Source of the DNA: an uncultured Lachnospiraceae bacterium
GTDB lineage: Bacteria > Bacillota > Clostridia > Lachnospirales > Lachnospiraceae
Direction: 5' to 3'
Assembly (NCBI GenBank): GCA_944380025.1
Contig: CALWGL010000005.1
Span: 1-33,212 of the forward strand
DNA: 33,212 bases
Shown in pieces: positions 14,333-32,491 of this stretch. The notes under the pieces are model-generated. The model had not been told where the DNA came from and did not search any database. It worked only from the letters and a program-made list of their open reading frames with translations. The first letter of the stretch is position 1, and the number at the start of each line of letters is the position of its first letter. The position numbers and the translations under genes were made by a program.

Positions 14333-14448
14333 GCCTGCGGCCTGTGAACTCCGGGGCCTGCGCCTGCGGCCTGTGAACTCTCCGCCCTGTGCCTGCGGCC
14401 TGTGAACTCTCCGCCCTGTGCCTGCGGCCTGTGACCTCAAAGCCTGCG
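14333..14448. repeat. Four tandem copies of a 29-bp repeat
   Basis: Copies begin at 14333, 14362, 14391 and 14420, each starting GCCTGCGGCCTGTGAACT on the plus strand; the last copy is diverged at its end. Copies 2 and 3 are identical. There are no spacers. The array fills most of the 176-bp gap between the GNAT stop and the glucuronidase start. Confidence 0.9.
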
Positions 14449-18320: not shown

Positions 18321-18337
18321 TTCAGTTCTCCTTGTAT

Positions 18338-18410
18338 CATAAGTCTCTGCCGCACGGCAGTCTCCGGCCTTTGTGCCATAAGTCTCCGCCGCGCGGCAGT
18401 CTCCGGCTTT
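18338..18410 (-). repeat. Two tandem 39-bp hairpin units before the aldo/keto reductase gene
   Basis: Units start at 18338 and 18377 and share CATAAGTCTC on the plus strand and a core hairpin. The first is the perfect CTGCCG-CA-CGGCAG (18347-18360), the second the slightly different CCGCCG-CG-CGGCAG (18386-18399). They occupy nearly all of the 90-bp gap between the alcohol dehydrogenase and the reductase, ending just before AAGGAG. Confidence 0.85.
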
Positions 18411-19463
18411 TCAGTCAAATACCACCGCAACCTTGCCGCAGTTTCCGCCGGCCATCAGGGAATAAGCCTCTCCTGCCTTCTCCAGCGGGAACTCGTGAGT
18501 GATCAGATCCTCCGGATGGATGCCCCAGCGCACCAGTCTCTCCACCAGCTCCTCCATTCTCCACAGAGAGGTTACCCAGGAGCCGTAGATGGTCTTCTGG
18601 CCATGGATGATATCCGGGCTGGGATTGAAGGTGCAGGTGCCGCCCTCTCCCACAAACGCGATCTTGCCCCACTCCCTGGTCGCGCGGATGGCAAGCTGAC
18701 GTCCCGGATCGCTGGCGCTGGCGTCGATGGCGCGCTCCACGCCGTGACCGTTCGTCACCTTCATGATGCCGTCCATCGCCTCATCGGGCGTGAACACATA
18801 GTCCACCAGGCCCAGCTTCTTTGCCAGCTCCACGCGGTATTCGTTCATCTCCACGCCGATCAGCATGTTGGCCCCCATGGCCTTTGCCAGCATCAGAGCC
18901 GCCAGTCCTACCGGGCCAAGGCCGGTCACCAGCACCGCGTCGTTTCCGCAGATGCCGATCTTCTCGATGGCTTCATAAACCGTTCCGAAGCCGCAGGCCA
19001 CCTGCGCGCCGTCCTTGTAGGTCAGCTCGTCGGGAAGGGCGATCAGATCCTTCTCATCCGCAAGGATGTAAGGAGCCATTCCGCCGTTTCTCTGCCAGCC
19101 GTATGCCTGACGGAAGCGGCTCTTGCAGGAAATGTAGTAGCCTCTGCGGCAGTCGTTGCACACGCCGCAGCCGGAAATATGATAAACGATGACTCTGTCG
19201 CCCTTTTTGAAGCGTCTGAGACCCTCGCCCTCCTCTACGATCACGCCGCAGGGCTCATGGCCGGCAACCATTCCGGGGATGTAGCCTTCCGGCCCCTTTC
19301 CCACATGCGCTCTGTAGATGCAGCGGATATCGCTTCCGCAGATCGTCGTCGCCTTCGTCTGGATCAGCACCTGTCCATGGCCCGGCTTCGGGATCTCAAA
19401 CTCCTTCATCTCCACCGTGCTGTTGCCGGGAAGCGTCGCCCCCCGCATTCTCATTTTTTCCAT
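18411..19463 (-). CDS. Zinc-dependent alcohol dehydrogenase (MDR family)
   Basis: A 350-residue medium-chain dehydrogenase of the threonine/sorbitol dehydrogenase type. Catalytic zinc ligands are Cys42 (TTICGSD) and His69-Glu70 (GHEP). Structural zinc is held by Cys99, 102, 105 and 113 (CGVCNDCRRGYYISC). The Rossmann motif GLGPVGLAALML is followed by an acidic GVEMNEYR. It is the first gene of the fucose operon and may act with the aldo/keto reductase on fucose, fuconate or a related polyol. No fuconate dehydratase or fucose kinase is in the window, so the pathway cannot be fixed. Start ATG 19463 follows GGGGAAGAAG; longer in-frame readings are repeat sequence. Confidence 0.9.
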   Translation of the reverse strand: MEKMRMRGATLPGNSTVEMKEFEIPKPGHGQVLIQTKATTICGSDIRCIYRAHVGKGPEGYIPGMVAGHEPCGVIVEEGEGLRRFKKGDRVIVYHISGCGVCNDCRRGYYISCKSRFRQAYGWQRNGGMAPYILADEKDLIALPDELTYKDGAQVACGFGTVYEAIEKIGICGNDAVLVTGLGPVGLAALMLAKAMGANMLIGVEMNEYRVELAKKLGLVDYVFTPDEAMDGIMKVTNGHGVERAIDASASDPGRQLAIRATREWGKIAFVGEGGTCTFNPSPDIIHGQKTIYGSWVTSLWRMEELVERLVRWGIHPEDLITHEFPLEKAGEAYSLMAGGNCGKVAVVFD

Positions 19464-19480
19464 TTCTTCTTCCCCTTTCT

Positions 19481-19677
19481 GCCGCCGCTTCGGCGGCACT
19501 GAATCTGTGAGGGATTGGGCATATGCCCGATTCCCGGGAGAAAACCGCAGGTTTTCTCCGCCTCTCTTTTCCGCCGCCGGACGGCGGCATTCCATTCATG
19601 AGAAATTGGGCGTGAGCCCAATTTCCAGGAGAAAACCGCAGGTTTTCTCCGCCCCTTGTCCGCCGCGTTCCCGCGGC
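19481..19677 (-). repeat. Tandem hairpin modules, period about 91 bp, in the fucose operon leader
   Basis: Three hairpin types recur. A: GCCGCCG-CTT-CGGCGGC (19481-19497), repeated at 19573-19588 and as GCCGCG/CGCGGC at 19662-19677. B: TTGGGC/GCCCGA (19514-19531) and the 10-bp perfect GAAATTGGGC/GCCCAATTTC (19602-19625). C: GGAGAAAACC-GCA-GGTTTTCTCC (19537-19559 and 19628-19650, identical). In transcript order the modules run A-C-B-A-C-B-A, and the last A hairpin is followed directly by the SD of the dehydrogenase gene. Confidence 0.9.
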
Positions 19678-19690
19678 CTTTTGTATTTTC

Positions 19691-19719
19691 ATTATAAATT
19701 TTCTCCTTTGAAATGATAA
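19691..19719 (-). promoter_or_regulatory. Promoter of the fucose operon
   Basis: On the minus strand TTATCA (complement of 19714-19719) and a perfect TATAAT (complement of 19691-19696) are 17 bp apart. Transcription would start near 19685, so the hairpin modules lie entirely in a leader of about 220 nt. Confidence 0.6.
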
Positions 19720-19942
19720 GAGAAACTTTTGACAACTTGTCCCGTTTCATGTCGCATCGGCGCAGGTTTTAATTCGCGGCCGGACACCCTTCACCTGCCG
19801 CCCCCAATCAGCCTGCCGCCCCACCAGCCGCCGCCCTCTTCTGCACGTCGATTGCGTGTTTTTCCCCGCCCGGGTCCCCTCACGCTTCCTGTGGTTCAAT
19901 ATTTTTCCAGGTTACGGCCAAAAACCCCAAAATTCCATATTC

Positions 19943-20166: not shown

Positions 20167-20247
20167 TGCAGGCGATCAGTGGCAGGCGATCAGCGGCAGG
20201 CAGTCAGCGGCAGATGTTCAGCAGGAGGCGATCAGCGGCAGGCGGCC
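20167..20247. repeat. Five to six tandem copies of a 14-bp repeat
   Basis: Degenerate copies of GGCAGGCGATCAGC start at 20167, 20181, 20195, 20209, 20223 and (partial) 20237. The array ends immediately at the AraC promoter. Together with the hairpin leader (19464-19690) and the ACCGTAC cluster it accounts for most of the 871-bp gap between the two genes. In the rest (19735-19940 and 20060-20166) I see no gene. Confidence 0.85.
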
Positions 20248-21234: not shown

Positions 21235-23861
21235 AGGAACCGGTCGCAGATCCCTTCCTCCGTGATTCCCGCATCCAGGCTCCCTATGGTATCGTTCCAC
21301 AGGCAGTAAATGGCTCCCGCCGTGCGGGACGACCACGCGGGCAGAAGCTTGGTCCGGCCTCCCAGGGGATATTCATTTGCCTCCCAGTCCGCAAGGGCCT
21401 CCAGATCCAGATAGTCGTAACCGCCCCCGGGAATGAGATACAGGCTGCTGTTGAGAGAATTGATCACGGTATACCCTGCCTGCCAGGTTTTCAGGGGATC
21501 CGACCAGTCGGCGCTCCAGATCTGAATCTGGATCTGCTCCGGCGAAACCGCCGCTTCCTCCCCTTCCTCCCACAGGCGGTACGCATTCTGTCCGGTACGC
21601 CCCTCCTTCCGGTTTGCTTCTTCGATCAGGCGCAGACTTCCCCACATCCGGACCGGGCGGCCGCTTTCCGCGGCCAGACTGACCATCTTCCGCATATAGT
21701 CCCGGTAATCCTGCACATCCCCATAATATTCATCCATACCGATATGCACGGTTCCCCCTTCCGCGAAAACCGGATCCTCTCCCTCCAGATATTCCTTCCA
21801 GAGTGTCTCCGTCAGAGAGAGCGTTTCCTTCCGGGAAAGATCCAGCTGGTCCACATTTTCCGGTTCATCCGCCAGAGCCGCCTCCGGAAACACCTTTGTG
21901 ATCGCAAGGCTGTGCGCCGGCGTGTCGATTTCCGGAACCACCTCGACGCCGAATCCGGCCGCCCATTCCACGAATTCCTTCCACTCCTCCTTGGTAAACG
22001 CGCCGTCCTGCGAGGTGATCCCCTCTCCTTTCTCATTTTGCAGGGAGGATTCCAGCCGGAAACCGGAATAGGCGGTAAAAGCATTTTCCAAGCTGTCGTT
22101 TTTCCCGCTGGTGGAAAGGATCTCATTATCGTTCAGGTGTATGCCGAGGGTGTTCATTTTGTGGGCGGACAGCTCCAGGACCATTTTCCGCAGGGTTTCC
22201 ATGGATACCATCCGCCTCCCGATATCGATGGAGAAGCCCCTCACGCTGTAGCGGGGATAGTCCCGGATCACGCCGCAGGGGATCCCGCCCGCGACGTGAC
22301 CCTGCCCGGCATTCTCCTGCCCCACAGCCATCTCCTCCTGCCTGGCATTCTCCTGCCCCGGATCCTTCTCCTTCCCCGGATCCTCCGTTTCCGCCCCCAT
22401 TTCCTCCAGAAGCCTGCAGAGGGTGTTCACGCCCCAGATCAGTCCCTGCCTTTCTTCAGCCAGAAGGACGATACCGTCCCTTTCGATCTCACACAGATAG
22501 CCTTCCTTCCCGAGGCCCAGCTCCCCGGAAGCCGTCCCAAGCCGGATATCCCCGGCGCTTTCGCCCGCGGATCCGGCTTCCGCCTCATCTGTCCGAACGC
22601 CTGCGGATCCGGCTTCCGCCGCGTCTGTCCGAACGTCTGTGGGCCCGGCTTCCGCCGCGTCTGTCCAAACGACCTCGGCCCTGTTCCCAAGCGCCTCCTG
22701 CAGGCGGGCGACCGCCTGAGAGGCCTCTTCCTTCCACCTGGCGTCCGCAAGGATCCGGATCTCTTCTCCGGGAAGGAAGCTGCCGCTTCCGGCACGCCAT
22801 TCCGCCGCCCCGCTGACCGCCTGCGGCCGCGTACTGTCCGCAGAGACCTGGCAATCTGTCGGGCGCAGGCTGTCCGCGGCTTCTTTTTCCGCGGGCTGTC
22901 CGCTTTCCGAAGCGGACGCCGTCTTCCTGCCCGCGAAAACGCCGTCCTCCTCCCAGACTGCCGGAACCGTGACCGGATAGCCGGGAGTCGTCTCCGTTTT
23001 CCCGTCTCTGGAAAGAAGGAAGCCCACCTCCACCTCTTTTTCCTCTACCGTGGGATATACCGTGCCGTCCCTGCCGATCACTTCCTCATAATCCGCTCCC
23101 GCGAGCTCGATCTGAACGCCCTCCGGCACTTCGGAAAGCACAAGCCTCCGGCTTCCGTCCGCCTCCGTTTCCACCCGGATATCCTGAAGCGACCAGGAAA
23201 GCGGGACCTCCTCATACAGTTCCGCTTCCAGAAGGGATACATTCTGATAATACAGATACTGATTCTCTTCGCTCTCAGACACCGCAGTCGTACGGATGCG
23301 GAAATACCTTCCCGCCGCAGGGCTGTCAAGCACCAGGCACTGCTCGTTTGCTTCCGGTGCCTCCTCCGCCCGGGCCGCCGTCACCCAGTCTGTCCCGTTC
23401 CGGGAGCTTTCCAGCACAAAGCCCTCCACGTTCAGCCTCTCCCAGCACAGCCGGACAAAGGAGATCCTTCTTTCCTCCGGAAATTCAAACATCAGCCAGT
23501 GAGACGGCTGCCCCGGTTCATTGGCGGAAGACCACCGGCTGTCCGGGCCGCTTCGGTTCCCGTCCGCCGCTTTTTCAGGAGAAAACGCTTCTGTCTCCGT
23601 GCTGTCCGCCGTCACGCGCACGCCCTCCGACAGTGCCAGGTTCACCATCTCTTTTCCGGAAGCGCTTCCTGCCGGAAAGCTTTCCGCCTCCTGCATATCC
23701 GCGCTCCCGTCTTCTTTCCGGCCGTCCCCGGAAAGGAAAATGGCCATAGCCGCGCACAGAAGCAGGACGGCCGCAGCCGCGGCCGCCCCCTTTTTCCAGA
23801 GCTTTCTGTTCCAGAGCTTTCTTCCCCGAACCTGATTTCCCTTCCGTTCCTTTTTCTTCAA
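21198..23861 (-). CDS. Membrane-anchored GH20 beta-N-acetylhexosaminidase with F5/8C domain
   Basis: An 887-residue extracellular glycosidase. Residues 25-44 form a membrane segment after a Lys/Arg-rich start (no lipobox, so anchor or signal peptide). A discoidin-like F5/8 type C sugar-binding domain follows at about 70-215, then a linker, a GH20b-type domain and the GH20 barrel from about 555. The catalytic pair Asp710-Glu711 is in HIGMDEYY. Two low-complexity insertions interrupt the GH20b region, one of three 12-residue repeats and one rich in Gly, Gln and Glu. The start is TTG at 23861, overlapping the cobO stop (TTGA), with AAAGGG upstream. It would release terminal GlcNAc, GalNAc or a disaccharide from mucin-type glycans; specificity is unknown. 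Confidence 0.88.
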   Translation of the reverse strand: MKKKERKGNQVRGRKLWNRKLWKKGAAAAAAVLLLCAAMAIFLSGDGRKEDGSADMQEAESFPAGSASGKEMVNLALSEGVRVTADSTETEAFSPEKAADGNRSGPDSRWSSANEPGQPSHWLMFEFPEERRISFVRLCWERLNVEGFVLESSRNGTDWVTAARAEEAPEANEQCLVLDSPAAGRYFRIRTTAVSESEENQYLYYQNVSLLEAELYEEVPLSWSLQDIRVETEADGSRRLVLSEVPEGVQIELAGADYEEVIGRDGTVYPTVEEKEVEVGFLLSRDGKTETTPGYPVTVPAVWEEDGVFAGRKTASASESGQPAEKEAADSLRPTDCQVSADSTRPQAVSGAAEWRAGSGSFLPGEEIRILADARWKEEASQAVARLQEALGNRAEVVWTDAAEAGPTDVRTDAAEAGSAGVRTDEAEAGSAGESAGDIRLGTASGELGLGKEGYLCEIERDGIVLLAEERQGLIWGVNTLCRLLEEMGAETEDPGKEKDPGQENARQEEMAVGQENAGQGHVAGGIPCGVIRDYPRYSVRGFSIDIGRRMVSMETLRKMVLELSAHKMNTLGIHLNDNEILSTSGKNDSLENAFTAYSGFRLESSLQNEKGEGITSQDGAFTKEEWKEFVEWAAGFGVEVVPEIDTPAHSLAITKVFPEAALADEPENVDQLDLSRKETLSLTETLWKEYLEGEDPVFAEGGTVHIGMDEYYGDVQDYRDYMRKMVSLAAESGRPVRMWGSLRLIEEANRKEGRTGQNAYRLWEEGEEAAVSPEQIQIQIWSADWSDPLKTWQAGYTVINSLNSSLYLIPGGGYDYLDLEALADWEANEYPLGGRTKLLPAWSSRTAGAIYCLWNDTIGSLDAGITEEGICDRFLQPLSLLSGKLW
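22570..22677. repeat. Three in-frame 36-bp repeats within the GH20 gene
   Basis: Copies begin at 22570, 22606 and 22642, each encoding a variant of the 12-residue unit VRTDAAEAGSAG on the minus strand. Because 36 is a multiple of 3, copy-number change would keep the reading frame and only alter linker length. Confidence 0.85.
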
Positions 23862-31219: not shown

Positions 31220-31891
31220 TTACGCGCCTTTTCCTTTAAGGTACCGCACCTGCGCCTCCAGGTCAAGCAGTCTCTGCGAAAGCTGCGCATTTTCCTTCTG
31301 CAGGGCGGCGATCTCTTCATGAACGGGATCCGGCAGATGCACCTGATCCATGGTCGCCCTGGGAATGGGCTGATCTCCCCGCTTCACCACGCGCCCCGGA
31401 ACGCCCACCACCGTGGAATTGGGCGGCACCTCCCGCAGCACCACGCTTCCCGCGCCGATCTTGGAATTTTCTCCGATGGTGAAGGAGCCCAGCACCTTCG
31501 CTCCGGCGCTGATCATCACGTTGTCGCAGACCGTGGGATGCCGTTTGCCGTGCTCCTTTCCCGTTCCGCCCAGCGTCACGCCCTGATACAGGGTCACGTT
31601 GTCGCCGATCACCGTGGTTTCCCCGATGATCACCCCGTTTCCGTGATCGATGAAAAATCCCTTCCCGATCTGCGCGCCCGGATGGATCTCGATCCCGGTC
31701 TTTCTTGCGCCGCGCTGGGAAATCCATCTTGCCAGAAAAAAATGGCCCGCCCGGTACAGCCTGTGCGCCACCCGGTAATGGAGCATCACCTTGAAGCTGG
31801 GATACAGAAAAACCTCCAGCGAGGAATGGATCGCCGGATCCCGTTCTCTGATGATGCGGATTTCTTCTCTGATATTACCAACCAGTCCCAT
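31220..31891 (-). CDS. cysE: Serine O-acetyltransferase
   Basis: A 223-residue left-handed beta-helix enzyme that makes O-acetylserine for cysteine synthesis. The N-terminal helices precede hexapeptide repeats (IEIHPGAQIGKGFFIDHGNGVIIGE..., GDNVTLYQGVTLGGTGK..., ISAGAKVLGSFTIGENSKIGAGSVV). The catalytic His lies in FIDHGNGV. The C terminus has a heptad-like tail (EEIAALQKENAQLSQRLLDLEAQ) that may be a coiled coil, longer than in the short form. The ATG at 31891 follows GAGGAGAGGG. Expression is probably controlled by the T-box upstream. Confidence 0.96.
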   Translation of the reverse strand: MGLVGNIREEIRIIRERDPAIHSSLEVFLYPSFKVMLHYRVAHRLYRAGHFFLARWISQRGARKTGIEIHPGAQIGKGFFIDHGNGVIIGETTVIGDNVTLYQGVTLGGTGKEHGKRHPTVCDNVMISAGAKVLGSFTIGENSKIGAGSVVLREVPPNSTVVGVPGRVVKRGDQPIPRATMDQVHLPDPVHEEIAALQKENAQLSQRLLDLEAQVRYLKGKGA

Positions 31892-31906
31892 ACCCTCTCC
31901 TCTTTT

Positions 31907-31984
31907 GCTGCCGCAGGCAGCACTTCAATCATGAAAGAACGGCGTCAGCCGTTCTTTGCCTCCTGTTTTGCTGCCACAAACAGC
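31907..31984 (-). repeat. Hairpin module between the T-box and cysE
   Basis: GCTGCC-GCA-GGCAGC (31907-31921), a 10-bp perfect AAAGAACGGC/GCCGTTCTTT stem (31934-31957) and a decayed GCTG/CAGC hairpin (31970-31984). On the minus strand the first of these is followed directly by AAAAGAGGAGAGGG and the cysE start. CATGATTGAAGT separates the hairpins, close to CATGAATGGAAT in the fucose operon leader. Confidence 0.85.
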
Positions 31985-31988
31985 ACTC

Positions 31989-32255
31989 AAAAAAGCCCTG
32001 CCGTCTCCTTTTTCATTTCAGAGACGGCAGGGCCGCGGTTCCACTCCGATTCAGAAGGATAGAAAAACTCTGTCCTTCTGCACTTGATGCGCGTAACGAG
32101 CGCAGGACGGATCCGGCTGTACAGGATGAACTCCTCTTCACCGGACCGGCTCCCGGATGCACTTCAGTCCTCACGCGCCGGGAATGCTTTCAGCCGGCGA
32201 CATTCCCTCTCTGCGGCCGGATCATGGACTGTTTTTTTCCGTTCCAGGCCTTTCT
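31989..32255 (-). promoter_or_regulatory. Cysteine T-box riboswitch with terminator
   Basis: On the minus strand the leader shows a stem I arm (GGGAATG/CATTCCC at 32180-32207 with GGCTGAAAG inside). A probable specifier TGC, a cysteine codon, lies within CTGAAGTGCATCC (complement of 32159-32161). The T-box core GAGTGGAACCGCG (32034-32046) differs by about one base from the consensus. The terminator has a 13-bp perfect stem (31995-32007 with 32021-32033), followed by six Ts. Uncharged tRNA-Cys would pair with the T-box and prevent termination before cysE-cysS. Confidence 0.9.
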
Positions 32256-32324: not shown

Positions 32325-32491
32325 GGTTACAGTTCACTCCGCGCCATTCGCAAAGCCGCGCTACGCGCTCTCCGCTGCTTCGCAGCTACCTTTGCTCATA
32401 AACGGGCGCTCCCTTCGTCCGCTCAGAGCCAGTCATCTGTTCGTGCAAGCACGACATCTGCCTGGTTCTGGCGGACGAGTGAACTGTAACC
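32325..32491. mobile_element. 167-bp MITE-like element with 15-bp terminal inverted repeats
   Basis: GGTTACAGTTCACTC (32325-32339) and its exact reverse complement (32477-32491) bound a non-coding interior. The interior contains small hairpins such as GCTGCTTCGCAGC. No transposase is encoded and no clear target-site duplication is visible. It lies just upstream of the cysE promoter. Confidence 0.65.

Follow-up and report, generated by a model that had tools for sequence, protein, structure and literature searches.

The stretch between the T-box terminator and the start codon of cysE belongs to a dispersed family of small structured repeats, each of which ends with a hairpin directly before a Shine–Dalgarno (SD) sequence. 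It occupies 31985-31892 on the minus strand of the window (the whole 33,212-nucleotide stretch of DNA that was analysed), with the ATG of cysE at 31891. Two copies in the leader of the fucose operon are members of the same family. In congeneric species we observed that the leaders of the same genes are filled or empty, with the boundary at the SD, a behaviour that the initial annotation of these leaders had not foreseen. Quite probably, the module represents one member of a new family of mobile repeats that are small and non-coding, and that target the SD and regenerate it.

Table 1. Positions of the repeat copies in the window, of their parts and of the neighbouring elements.
Feature	Position	Strand	Evidence
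T-box leader 5' of cysE, a neighbour and not part of the module	32017..32255	-	Full-length match to Rfam RF00230 (87 bits, E 1.2e-19)
Terminator hairpin and T run of the T-box, flanking the module on its left	31994..32034	-	Sequence; recognisable at the orthologous place in congeners
H0, worn H3 copy TGCTGTTTGTGGCAGCA, left end of the array	31969..31985	-	14/17 bases match H3
Upstream SD-like stretch AAACAGGAGGC, left SD copy	31958..31968	-	Sequence; equivalent to the SD present before insertion, as judged from empty sites at other genes
H2, perfect 10-bp hairpin AAAGAACGGC-TGAC-GCCGTTCTTT	31934..31957	-	Sequence; R2 E 2.8e-9; covariation over 33 copies
A-rich linker CATGATTGAAGT	31922..31933	-	Sequence; family alignment
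H3, G+C-rich hairpin GCTGCC-TGC-GGCAGC, immediately 5' of the SD	31907..31921	-	Sequence; hardly any variation of the stem among 33 copies
Functional SD stretch AAAAGAGGAGAGGGT before cysE ATG 31891	31892..31906	-	Sequence
cysE, serine O-acetyltransferase, 223 aa	31220..31891	-	ORF; orthologues found across the genus
Fucose-leader unit 1 (H1-H2-linker-H3-SD)	19562..19650	-	R2 E 1.1e-19; among the sequences used for model building
Fucose-leader unit 2, ends before start codon ATG 19463	19470..19559	-	R2 E 6.5e-15

Copies in the cysE and fucose leaders

The layout that the initial annotation had read in the cysE leader (hairpin, SD-like stretch, 10-bp hairpin, linker, G+C-rich hairpin and SD) is accurate (Table 1). 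Comparison of the first hairpin, H0 (TGCTGTTTGTGGCAGCA), with its H3 counterpart (TGCTGCCTGCGGCAGCA) identified the former as a worn copy of the latter, and arrays at other loci likewise open with an H3 and an SD-like stretch. The hairpin H1, found in complete units, is absent from this copy. The fold of the cysE stretch was more stable than those of dinucleotide shuffles (z -3.0). The preceding T-box was called slightly under the gathering score of its family (87 bits versus 93 for RF00230), and its Cys specificity is putative. Further 5' of the T-box region lies a stretch of ~167 bp (32325-32491), bounded by GGTTACAGTTCACTC and its exact reverse complement GAGTGAACTGTAACC; this resembles another small repeat with terminal inverted repeats, a second copy of which was not found in the loci examined.

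The fucose leader carries two tandem units (19650-19470, minus strand), which are 80% identical to each other. The parallel drawn in the initial annotation between the two leaders, including their linkers (CATGATTGAAGT and CATGAATGGAAT), turned out to reflect a real feature shared by the family. A short upstream reading frame in the linker (ATGATT) was rejected as a functional candidate, as it is not conserved among family linkers. Spurious open reading frames cross the fucose-leader units (19396-19750, minus strand). The longest frame of the dehydrogenase gene (18411-19595) begins within unit 1, and automatic annotation could set its start too far upstream. Short tandem repeats unrelated to the module were also observed in the window at 14333-14438, 18332-18409, 20168-20243 and 22562-22678, with periods of 29, 39, 14 and 36 bp, respectively.

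Architecture, pairing and placement of the family

A covariance model, R1, was built from an alignment (A2) of seven modules of the same genome. In the source genome it gave 134 matches at E<=10, about 91 of them at E<0.01, and it scored the cysE copy at E 3.9e-6. A second model, R2, was built from 33 copies, from which the cysE copy of the source genome was excluded. R2 detected three convincing sense matches in the window, namely the two fucose-leader units and 31896-31971 in the cysE leader (E 2.8e-9); no further sense match in the window was better than E 0.07. Hence, the dispersed family of structured intergenic repeats suggested by the initial annotation is borne out, with about 90 copies in the genome. 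A complete unit is ~75-90 bp long and consists of H1 (10 bp), H2 (10 bp), an A-rich linker of ~12 nt and the G+C-rich H3, followed by the SD and the start codon. The order of these parts is fixed and their spacing near-fixed in the family alignment.

We analyzed the pairing of the stems in the 33-copy alignment. H3 is nearly invariant in sequence. In H1 and H2, both partners have changed in each of the 20 pairs. Paired cells amounted to 98.9%, compared with 74.4% after shuffling, and covariation was 0.641, compared with 0.192 (sd 0.013) in shuffled and at most 0.136 in slid controls; as the alignment was fitted to the structure of the model these counts are inflated, although the raw sequences themselves plainly show how large the gap is and how few pairs are broken. 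G-U pairs made up ~10 of the 660 H1/H2 cells (about 1.5%), and the arms are therefore near-perfect inverted repeats at the DNA level too. Such arms could have arisen through a hairpin DNA intermediate or through the correction of one arm by the other.

Next, the position of the copies relative to genes was scored. A start codon directly follows 71 of the 89 sense copies in the source genome, compared with a loose expectation of 18% for random positions; a start codon within a few bases was counted if its frame had >=50 codons or was open to the end of the stretch. Nearly all of the remaining sense copies are upstream members of tandem arrays, the last unit of which adjoins the start codon. Among four apparent exceptions, three are separated only by worn sequence from a start codon just 3' of them, and the fourth appears to be due to chance. 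The two conditions under which the initial annotation would have failed, structural scores no better than those of shuffled sequence and random placement of the other copies, were thus both checked, and neither applied. The downstream genes, named from the starts of their proteins, are unrelated and include upp, purA, metK, rpsI, ackA, uvrA and pgi. We rejected a T-box-specific role of the module, since modules precede many genes without T-boxes and precede metK behind a SAM riboswitch. The latter riboswitch (RF00162; loci L326 and L330) lies 5' of metK, and in some species the module sits between the two, as it does between T-box and gene at cysE. It was also observed that in the G000 MAG many contig ends (C308, C122, C259, C297, C17, C28 and C71) lie no more than a few hundred bases from a unit, which suggests that short-read assembly was broken by the repeats and that the count underestimates the true copy number.

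The fixed order and near-fixed spacing, the compensatory changes in every H1/H2 pair with almost all cells paired, and the sense orientation next to start codons all speak for a genome-wide regulatory RNA. In this view, selection maintains H1-H2-H3 ahead of the SD in many genes, where the module would bind a protein or affect the decay of the mRNA or the loading of ribosomes. The compensatory change in H1 and H2 is strong, and could indeed be a sign of selection on an RNA. However, the genes concerned are unrelated, close relatives do without the module, and H1, H2 or both are absent at many orthologous leaders (rpmD, metK and cysE). G-U pairs are scarcer than expected for drift at the RNA level. 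No Rfam 15 family matched the module at gathering threshold in the window or in 16 loci, and nothing credible was found by E-value in one array. Predicted SD accessibility was equal with the module (0.49), without it (0.52) and with shuffled upstream sequence (0.51), in a prediction whose automatic choice of the SD was poor at about a quarter of the loci; an effect of the module in raising or lowering SD accessibility was accordingly rejected in silico. On balance, we regard a regulatory RNA as an unlikely explanation of the family.

Empty and filled leaders, arrays and distribution

Five orthologous leaders, those of cysE, rpsI, ackA, metK and rpmD, are empty in some species and filled in others. 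Where the boundaries could be read, the unit begins just 3' of an SD, and an SD occurs again after the unit. This is seen best at rpsI. The empty leader of G307 reads ATTCTAATAAGGAGGA-AATAGGAAA-ATG (also CTAATAAGGAGGA-AATAGGAAA-ATG), whereas the filled leader of G300 reads ATTCTAATAAGGAGGA-unit-AATAAAAGGAGGA-AATTAGAAA-ATG. In this comparison the unit starts directly after AAGGAGGA and is followed by AATAAAAGGAGGA-AAT, so that the SD region is present twice. In G303 and G299 the left SD of rpsI has decayed to AAGAAGGA and the right SD is intact.

The cysE leader was compared among 12 congeners, in which the T-box leader is recognisable. Between terminator and ATG we found a two-unit array in G299, linker-H3-SD in G307 and an H2-like hairpin with H3 in G305; the leader is short and module-free in G308, G300, G301, G309, G302 and G304. 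In G303 it is different although the CysE protein is 100% identical. The metK leader is empty in G299, has a single unit in G306 and holds arrays in G303 and G307, and that of ackA is empty in G307 and G300 and filled in G000, G299 and G303. For rpmD, the leader is empty in G302, G304 and G309, and contains H3 only in G300 and G305, H1 and H3 in G301, H2 and H3 in G307 and an array in G107.

Direct repeats containing the SD flank the unit at rpsI and at the loci L257, L245, L225 and L230, but are absent at ackA, where the left flank (ATATGGAGG) and the right flank (GGAAAAAGAGG) have no matching SD. Over 27 single insertions, the left flank was nearer to its own right flank than to those of other loci, a value reached in 17 of 20,000 permutations. 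This match between own flanks supports a duplication containing the SD, which, judging from the ackA exception, would not be uniform and which may have arisen at insertion.

Unit number also varies within loci. Loops of neighbouring H3 hairpins in the same locus agree in 52.5% of 80 pairs (6.8% when permuted), and the SD tails of neighbouring array H3 hairpins are more alike than expected by chance. At rpmD of G107 the two H3-SD repeats share an identical stretch of 29 nt, and two contigs (L241 and L226) that are 99.3% identical differ by one 86-bp unit. Hence, unit number changes quickly, via recombination or slippage. There is in addition a series of decay, in which H1 and/or H2 have been lost at many orthologous leaders and H3 and the SD kept; this argues against an indispensable regulatory role of H1-H2.

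That local slippage and hairpin template switching made and homogenised the arrays, with the likeness between loci due to convergence on a hairpin and an SD and no mobility at all, would account for the near-perfect arms, for H3 loops that are specific to a locus and for the 86-bp change in unit number between close contigs. It is nevertheless very unlikely, because dozens of unrelated loci and species share the H1/H2 sequences GGCACGAACC / GGTTCGTGCC and RAAGAAYGGC, and slippage within a locus cannot give such shared stems. A point against mobility is that presence and absence are seen among species rather than as transposition events; some cases are explained equally well by a filled ancestor from which the unit was deleted between H3-SD repeats. 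The lack of terminal inverted repeats and of an enzyme tied to the family, with Y1 transposase not found in seven carrier genomes, and the unmatched flanks at ackA also count against it.

Under the mobile-repeat reading, which we prefer, a unit would enter the leader just 3' of the SD core (GGAGG), leaving an SD on each side. The right SD, beside the start codon, would keep the gene translated, and the left SD would be free to decay. Tandem arrays, in which H3-SD direct repeats are shared, may then expand or contract locally, and units may decay by loss of H1 and H2 while H3 and the SD stay; the cysE leader, with H1 gone and the left H3 (H0) worn, would represent one such state. The SD would be the target, or a tolerated site, of a repeat that probably moved by true transposition. 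The repeat would persist because the gene retains an SD beside its start codon, and mainly, we suggest, because insertion is harmless rather than useful. Since the unit lands on a ribosome-binding site and leaves a working one at its far end, it apparently can spread through essential operons without stopping their genes. More tentatively, the insertion machinery might recognise the SD itself, perhaps at the RNA level as all copies lie in the mRNA sense, and the family might be a selfish repeat that rebuilds the ribosome-binding site it enters and so spreads through housekeeping and ribosomal operons.

All 13 Eisenbergiella species examined carry the family at E<=1e-4, with 129 (G307), 98 (G306), 80, 60, 53, 41, 39, 34, 29, 17, 2, 1 and 1 matches, G302, G304 and G309 being nearly empty. 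Those relatives that have a name are Eisenbergiella MAGs, and the record titles of several point to chicken gut. Among 299 genomes spread over the bacterial family, just five gave matches. They include one genus (G253; loci L306, L310 and L314) that has the same architecture with quite different stems, and one (G217; L305) that has similar stems. Two loci filed under Mediterraneibacter and Caccomorpha (L241 and L244) align to Eisenbergiella contigs at 99.3% and 85-89%, respectively, and are for this reason likely to be misbinned MAG contigs; spread into other genera, as judged by the subfamily pattern, was rejected on these grounds. Several other Lachnospiraceae genera (L044, L045, L049, L055, L059, L060, L061, L069, ~1501) show a recurrent leader, ..ACTATTTG-TGCCGCCGCTTGGCGGCGGAATGGAGATT-ATG, which shares the idea of an H3 followed by an SD and differs in its conserved upstream part. 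This is possibly a related or a convergent family.

Relation to known repeats and significance

We compared the family with known small repeats. Like MITEs, it is short and dispersed in many copies and has empty and filled sites in relatives. By inspection it has no terminal inverted repeats, as the reverse complement of its right end (..GGCGGCR) does not match its left end (CCGGCACG.. or CGGAGAAA..); the inverted repeats of the unit are its internal hairpins. Its short hairpins, many intergenic copies and tandem arrays recall the palindromes of the REP/BIME/REPIN type, which are moved by a RAYT (Y1) transposase. However, a GTAG or CGTC tag next to H1 was found in 0 of 143 units. The Y1 transposase domain PF01797, the sole enzyme family searched, was not found in seven of 13 congeners (G000, G299, G303, G305, G306, G107 and G307), all of them carriers with 17 to 129 units each and with incomplete assemblies. 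With none found in these seven carriers, a Y1/RAYT enzyme was rejected as the driver, and palindromes of the REP type are an extremely unlikely explanation of the family. The terminal inverted repeats that define classical MITEs are lacking, as are the tags and the Y1 transposase typical of REPs, and we therefore class the family, on the preferred reading, among the small interspersed mobile repeats as a new form. An earlier description of SD-targeting repeats was not found in the open-licence literature.

Nearest in behaviour, as far as the available parts of the two sources describe them, are YPAL/RU-2 of Yersinia (PMC2229807) and BOX of Streptococcus pneumoniae (PMC3049150). YPAL/RU-2 is an enterobacterial element of 168 bp which, like the present family, has internal inverted repeats, is not A+T-rich, and has known empty and filled sites; its target duplications are variable (3-26 bp), and its targets span or adjoin dyad symmetry (PMC2229807). 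The present family differs in that its hairpins are three and separate, its units form tandem arrays and its stems keep their structure rather than their sequence, and targeting or regeneration of the SD does not appear in that part of the YPAL/RU-2 description (PMC2229807). BOX shares modular stem-loops, a variable number of tandem modules, intergenic positions near genes and differences between strains. It is built as boxA-boxB(n)-boxC with conserved sequences, and the part of its description available does not place the SD of the following gene at its end (PMC3049150). BOX also belongs to another lineage and has a different unit length. ERIC and Correia/NEMIS are likewise co-transcribed hairpin repeats able to alter the decay of neighbouring mRNA; as far as these same sources describe them, they are MITE-like, with terminal inverted repeats and no terminal SD, and the effect of ERIC depends on orientation (PMC2229807, PMC3049150).

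Small interspersed repeats usually sit where little harm is done. The present repeat occupies the most sensitive spot of the leader, and the operons concerned encode ribosomal proteins and functions of central metabolism; it appears to be tolerated because of the working SD at its end. This gives a testable rule for safe insertion. In these gut bacteria, the family probably accounts for broken MAG contigs and for spurious open reading frames. It also serves as a warning against taking strong compensatory change, when seen among paralogous hairpins, as proof of a regulatory RNA, and it supplies tandem hairpin leaders in finished form that regulation could co-opt.
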